From the NCBI GenBank assembly GCA_017432825.1, contig JAFRIJ010000012.1:1-64000 (forward strand): a stretch of 64,000 bases of DNA, written 5' to 3'. Below the pieces are notes generated by a model that had not been told where the DNA came from, did no database searches, and saw only the letters and a program-made list of their open reading frames with translations. Both the position numbers and the translations under genes were made by a program. Every line of letters begins with the position of its first letter. Position 1 is the stretch's first letter. Below are positions 1,609-1,854 of this stretch, one piece after another. This DNA is from Bacilli bacterium. GTDB taxonomy: Bacteria > Bacillota_I > Bacilli_A > RF39 > UBA660.

Positions 1609-1854
1609 ATGGAAACAGTAGAAGCTGCAATTGCAACAGGCATTGGAATAATGCTAGGACTTGCATTTTTAGGATTAGGAATAGGTGTAGGATTATTAGG
1701 TGGACGCGTAGCAGAAGCCGTAGGAAGAAATCCAGAAACAAAGAATGACGTAGTTCACTCAATAATGACAATATTAATAATAACATCAGTATTTTTATTA
1801 TTCTTATTTTTATTCTGCTTCTTCTTATTATTCTATAATCCATTAATTTCATAA
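1609..1854 (+). CDS. F-ATPase subunit c-like proteolipid lacking the ion-binding carboxylate
   Basis: An 81-residue hairpin protein. Helix 1 (about residues 7-32) keeps the glycine-rich [11 protein letters not shown] pattern of subunit c, and the polar loop keeps the R-N-P motif (residues 40-42) that in canonical rings contacts gamma and epsilon. Helix 2 (about 52-76) is purely hydrophobic, Phe/Leu-rich, with no Asp or Glu. Counting from the loop, the position of the essential carboxylate falls at Ser60. Subunit c normally carries protons or Na+ on that residue, so this ring should not translocate ions in the usual way. The start at 1609 is chosen for its AGGAG site; an upstream in-frame ATG at 1576 has none. 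First gene of the operon. Confidence 0.8.

Follow-up and report, generated by a model that had tools for sequence, protein, structure and literature searches.

An operon at the beginning of the window (the whole 64,000-nucleotide stretch of DNA analysed here) encodes an F1-like ATPase alongside a subunit c-like protein with no ion-binding carboxylate, and the reading we favour, with moderate confidence, is that it specifies a rotary motor of F1Fo descent which hydrolyses ATP, has given up ion transport and passes force through its c-ring to proteins at the cell surface. The motor probably spends ATP on mechanical work across the membrane, rather than making ATP. The following features belong to the operon:

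2..748, plus strand: surface protein B, C-terminal part, cut by the contig start (B family profile, E 2.8e-47)
758..1501, plus strand: protein D, 247 aa; a single TM helix at the N-terminus, outer domain all-beta
1503..1531, no strand assigned: terminator-like hairpin after D, with an 11-pair stem
1535..1563, plus strand: promoter-like site before c, TTGACA-17-TATACT, with TG before the -10 (extended -10)
1609..1854, plus strand: c-like ring subunit, 81 aa, without a carboxylate; PF00137 match, S60 at the carboxylate site
1861..2625, plus strand: b-delta-like putative stator protein, with an N-terminal TM helix, helical middle and delta-like C-terminus
2627..4033, plus strand: alpha-like subunit (PF00006, E 7e-71), with GDKKTGKT and GRDAYPSDIFYTHSR kept and an N-terminal delta-docking segment
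4048..5400, plus strand: beta-like catalytic subunit (TIGR01039, 476.6 bits, cut-off 462.85), EELSEED present
5387..5638, plus strand: epsilon-like subunit, 83 aa, lacking the helical domain at the C-terminus
5641..6183, plus strand: protein X, helical and membrane-embedded, with about 5 TM segments, possible subunit a remnant
6196..6987, plus strand: gamma-like central shaft (PF00231, E 6.5e-22)

Profiles built from the window's proteins recovered one conserved operon across the homologue loci, ordered in Clostridia and Actinomycetota as A, B, c, b-delta-like, alpha, gamma, beta, epsilon, X, D and E; in the family to which the window belongs, gamma usually stands last and D precedes c. A and B lie in the operon at 41-43 of the 55 loci and E at 22 of 55, and since the window begins at base 1 of its contig, it contains nothing of A and only the end of B. 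The hairpin after D was listed on the minus strand by the scan, and a T run follows on the plus strand too; the promoter-like site, the best match within 1-8200 at 11 of 12 positions, is a consensus match only. Directly after the operon lies a class III signal peptide or Flp-like pilin gene (7146-7358), followed by two small proteins (7453-7902 and 7896-8141), and two close relatives (L026 and L031) carry ORFs of similar size and order after gamma. The pilin was considered as the motor's load and set aside: need does not argue for it, as the genome has T2SSE-family ATPases above cut-off.

The c-like subunit and its carboxylate-less clade

That this protein is related to subunit c, as the first-pass annotation had supposed, is borne out by its match to PF00137 (Pfam ATP-synt_C; E 3.8e-9, 37.1 bits, cut-off 24), by the hairpin-wide homology, glycine motif and polar loop that accompany membership of that family, and by its top sequence matches in the PDB, which are c subunits, with the c1 chain of Acetobacterium woodii (4bem_J) the best. 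The 81-residue product agrees with the first-pass annotation; its start codon at 1609 is preceded by AGGAG at 1596-1600, and homologues begin with the same M-E. The carboxylate of subunit c is one of the defining features of Fo. Counted from the loop arginine R40, S60 stands at R+20 and falls in the carboxylate column of the alignment, where a canonical c subunit of the same bacterial family has Glu; the earlier placing of the missing carboxylate at Ser60 thus agrees with both the count and the alignment. Helix 2, previously described as free of acidic residues, turns out to contain no D, E, K, R or H at all, and the companion claim for helix 1 stands as well: there is no acidic residue inside the membrane, and E36 marks the loop end, a feature common to canonical c. 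An alignment that would put an acidic residue of this protein at the membrane centre was looked for, and none was found.

Homologues were sought in one genome per species across 84,980 bacterial and archaeal species, and were found in Bacilli, Clostridia (including Kineothrix alysoides), Coriobacteriia (Coriobacteriales) and Bifidobacterium colobi; the hosts of the carboxylate-less system include some gut bacteria. Across the 55 aligned homologues the residue at R+20 is A in 24, S in 18, T in 9, M in 3 and V in 1, against E in 20 and D in 9 of the 29 canonical c subunits that the scan also returned. This division of 55 from 29 was made partly by the missing Glu in helix 2, and is circular taken alone; it is backed by operon content, because a b-delta-like or X gene occurs at none of the canonical loci. 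The RNPE loop is kept in 55/55, as is the GxGxGxG glycine motif through which helix 1 packs in c-rings. A single member of the set (L056, 7817-8059) has an acidic residue in helix 2, a D at R+19, one before the usual site, where its near relative L045 has Thr. The operon is present in two copies (L046 and L050, both CALWLW01) in one Lachnoclostridium MAG, and searches with the c-like protein for a plasmid or phage location gave no match.

The first-pass annotation had named homologues with the carboxylate as the observation that would point to a sequencing error or recent mutation; none of the 55 in the clade has it at its position, and the c-like gene is under strong purifying selection (dN/dS of 0.02-0.13 in close pairs). 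Together, the homologues and the dN/dS values rule out both error and recent mutation. We likewise give next to no credence to the idea that the operon is a decaying remnant of an ATP synthase or a product of misassembly. Its distribution is certainly patchy, with PF00137 in 11 of the 145 genomes of the window's own family, of which one holds a canonical c (L015) and 10, the window's included, the carboxylate-less form; decay of this kind is nonetheless hard to square with 55 homologues in two phyla, selection of this strength, and reading frames and catalytic motifs that are intact.

The F1 part, the stator side and the question of an ion path

Within the F1 part, the beta-like subunit has a GGAGxGKT Walker A motif and GERxREG in all 49 sequences, and the alpha-like subunit a Walker A motif in all 50, with the arginine-finger motif in 36 of these by strict pattern. 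Judged by these motifs, the F1 part looks catalytically active. Gamma is alignable to canonical gamma over most of its length. Comparison of epsilon with canonical epsilon (hhalign) covers 81 columns with P 1.8e-4 and a probability of 48%, below usual certainty; the protein has about 83 aa in most loci and 104-155 aa in some relatives, and the C-terminal domain of epsilon inhibits ATP hydrolysis in many bacteria. The N-terminal segment of alpha resembles the delta-binding segment of canonical alpha and is absent from mycoplasma Type 2 and 3 alpha. In two Bacilli subgroups the alpha-like subunit is extended at its C-terminus by a long stretch of low complexity, to 829-1416 aa in total (L016:4888-9138 on the minus strand, L045:11011-13500 and L056:8817-11489). 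Because beta passes the TIGR01039 cut-off, annotation pipelines may call it a true ATP synthase beta, which could lead to wrong conclusions about energy metabolism in such genomes.

On the stator side, the b-delta-like protein gives a modest match to canonical delta (hhalign probability 70%, P 4e-5), below usual certainty, and residues G235 and D246 are invariant, with S248 nearly so, all three in the delta C-terminal motif; its identity as b is based only on position and one TM helix. A search of PDB sequences with this protein returned coiled-coil noise only. We consider it unlikely that the c-like ring stands still as an anchor that fixes the F1-like ATPase to the membrane, leaving F1 to act on A, B, D and E through changes of conformation, in the manner of export ATPases. 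A ring that binds no ions does not itself have to rotate, and FliI and related ATPases function without an ion-driven ring; however, gamma, epsilon and the delta-like stator have all been kept, holding F1 with a stator serves a purpose only where another part rotates against it, and FliI/SctN models score far below F-type models for these F1 proteins. A rotating motor remains the reading we prefer.

Protein X is modelled by AF2 with a pLDDT of 90.2 and a pTM of 0.84. By profile it has no similarity to subunit a and by sequence no match in the PDB, and an assignment as subunit a on sequence was rejected, the similarity of fold being weak: Foldseek gave 0 significant hits, whilst subunit a chains account for 11 of the 47 weak ones and take the six highest TM-scores (0.41-0.47), the best, 0.47, with a Foldseek E of 2.4. 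Comparison of homologues revealed no conserved charged residue, Arg included, within the TM helices of X. The modelled fold suggests that X may be a remnant of subunit a that lost its Arg.

No match to PF00119 (subunit a) exists in the window's genome, and no operon gene matches subunit a; the c-like protein is that genome's only match to PF00137, and no second alpha/beta pair of F1 was found there. Among 20 genomes of relatives, the 16 large ones have PF00119 and a high-scoring c, both away from the operon, whilst the four small ones (1.0-1.5 Mb) have neither elsewhere; going by these genes, the large-genome relatives carry a separate canonical F1Fo. It is extremely unlikely that the c-like protein joins a ring of canonical c subunits and merely dilutes their ion sites, after the manner of the one c1 hairpin in the A. 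woodii ring. The best PDB match is that very c1, the second hairpin of which has Gln at the carboxylate position, but a genome with no other PF00137 match and no subunit a offers the protein no such partner, and the operon brings its own complete F1.

An ion-translocating F-ATPase with an unusual site, in which Ser/Thr, backbone groups or a residue of X take the place of the carboxylate, appears highly unlikely to us. Ser or Thr does occupy R+20 in 27 of the 55 homologues, and Na+ c-rings use Ser/Thr and backbone ligands in addition to a carboxylate; the other 28 have Ala, Met or Val at that position, however, no other acidic residue is kept, X offers no conserved charge in the membrane, and the large-genome relatives retain a canonical enzyme besides. 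The first-pass annotation had read the ring, if formed, as probably a rotor or anchor rather than a carrier of ions, and the results support it, the absence of a subunit a gene and of a conserved Arg in X pointing the same way.

Surface proteins and the proposed transmission of force

The remaining products of the operon are single-pass proteins with large outer domains. A has about 1,700-2,500 aa and one TM helix, and B 450-720 aa and one TM helix; E, found in Clostridia, exceeds 1,200 aa, the K. alysoides protein, which spans L144 and L146, having about 3,800 aa. D has homologues at about 35 loci, in the same operon, and an AF2 model with a pLDDT of 91.5. In one A, Pfam detects a repeat of collagen type together with a bacterial Ig-like domain, and in one B an fn3 match below its cut-off; it finds nothing in E, D matches neither Pfam nor the PDB, and no function for D or E emerged from Pfam or fold searches.

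Other secreted or membrane-bound proteins occur in these genomes. Beside the operon in Bacilli (L022, L023, L037, L040 and L052) are several single-TM proteins of 200-270 aa which share the N-terminus GIFYGVIGVATLxVAIIGATFAYF and are possibly fibre subunits. In the window itself, at 33762-36185, 36672-41380 and 55540-59235, there are secreted proteins, several apparently paralogous, with cadherin-like, SH3_3 and dockerin type I domains (one above and one below the Pfam cut-off), in a genome of 1.16 Mb.

In the mechanism we propose, F1 (alpha, beta, gamma and the short epsilon) would hydrolyse ATP and thereby turn gamma-epsilon and the attached c ring. If assembled, that ring, its packing glycines and polar loop kept, would turn as an inert membrane rotor, because its subunit carries no ion-binding carboxylate. 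The b-delta-like protein would hold the alpha-beta hexamer, and X may serve as the membrane stator beside the ring, at the place of subunit a. Torque would then cross the membrane to A, B and D, and in Clostridia E also, to be spent on mechanical work of some kind at the cell surface. The sequences give no sign of contact between the ring and A, B, D or E; rotation and the transfer of force to these proteins are proposed by analogy with the F1-like X0 motors of mycoplasmas, for which roles in gliding and antibody cleavage, together with surface proteins, are described (PMC12994834; PMC11864180).

Comparison with known rotary ATPases

With bacterial F1Fo the system shares alpha, beta, gamma, an epsilon-like subunit, a delta-like domain, a c hairpin with glycine motif and loop, and, in the operon of Clostridia, the order alpha-gamma-beta-epsilon. 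It differs in having a c without the carboxylate (present in 0/55 here, against 29/29 canonical subunits), no recognisable subunit a with its essential Arg, b-like and delta-like parts in one protein, an epsilon usually without its C-terminal domain, and giant surface proteins in the operon. The N-ATPase resembles it as a second F-type operon alongside the canonical one in some genomes; the N-ATPase is an ion-pumping type, however, and alpha, beta and c here score far below the alt_F1F0 cut-offs. Carboxylate-less c-type hairpins occur in working rings of A. woodii (c1, 4bem_J) and among V-type proteolipids, where they stand beside carboxylate-bearing ones, whereas no carboxylate-bearing c exists in the window's genome. 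A search limited to open-access papers turned up neither a carboxylate-less c family nor an account of this operon.

Functional parallels are known from mycoplasmas, where the Type 2 G1-ATPase drives gliding, as in Mycoplasma mobile, and the Type 3 F1-like X0, together with MIB-MIP, is needed for antibody cleavage (PMC12994834). Both resemble the present system as F1-like motors without a known ion path, with co-encoded large membrane or surface proteins and with alpha and beta outside the canonical clade. Their clusters, described as mycoplasma-specific (PMC3369863), contain a 12-TM protein and a large protein of 2-3 TM helices and lack homologues of c, b and delta and the N-terminal helix of alpha (PMC3369863, PMC12994834), whereas here there are c, a b-delta-like protein and the 5-TM X; profiles of c, b-delta, epsilon, X and D found no convincing homologue in nine Type 2/3 clusters. 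In a concatenated alpha and beta tree, canonical F1 from several phyla and mycoplasma Type 1 are separated from the new clade and Types 2 and 3 with support of 100, and the new clade is itself distinct from Types 2 and 3 (support 100), its alpha and beta scoring below the cut-offs of those families. That tree also joins the new clade to Type 3, with support of 81, and long-branch effects are possible there; in a paralogue-rooted tree, in which alpha and beta root each other, this grouping receives 59 for beta and is absent for alpha. A common origin with Types 2 and 3 is not claimed, because the paralogue-rooted tree does not reproduce the grouping.

The best reading is that the operon works like the mycoplasma F1-like X0 motors and differs from them in its recognisable c, delta-like and stator parts. 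If this is true, a selected and widespread clade, with no carboxylate in the whole ring and no subunit a gene, would show that a c-ring can be retained for purely mechanical use. The broader proposition, that there exists in Bacillota and Actinomycetota a motor family in which an ion-siteless c-ring is the transmembrane drive shaft for work on giant surface proteins, and which may be a surviving relative of the ancestor of mycoplasma F1-like X0, is one that we would as soon accept as doubt. With a membrane part still recognisably Fo-derived, and homologues in the named isolates K. alysoides and B. colobi, the system offers a possible handle on how the F1-like motors of mycoplasmas transmit force through the membrane.
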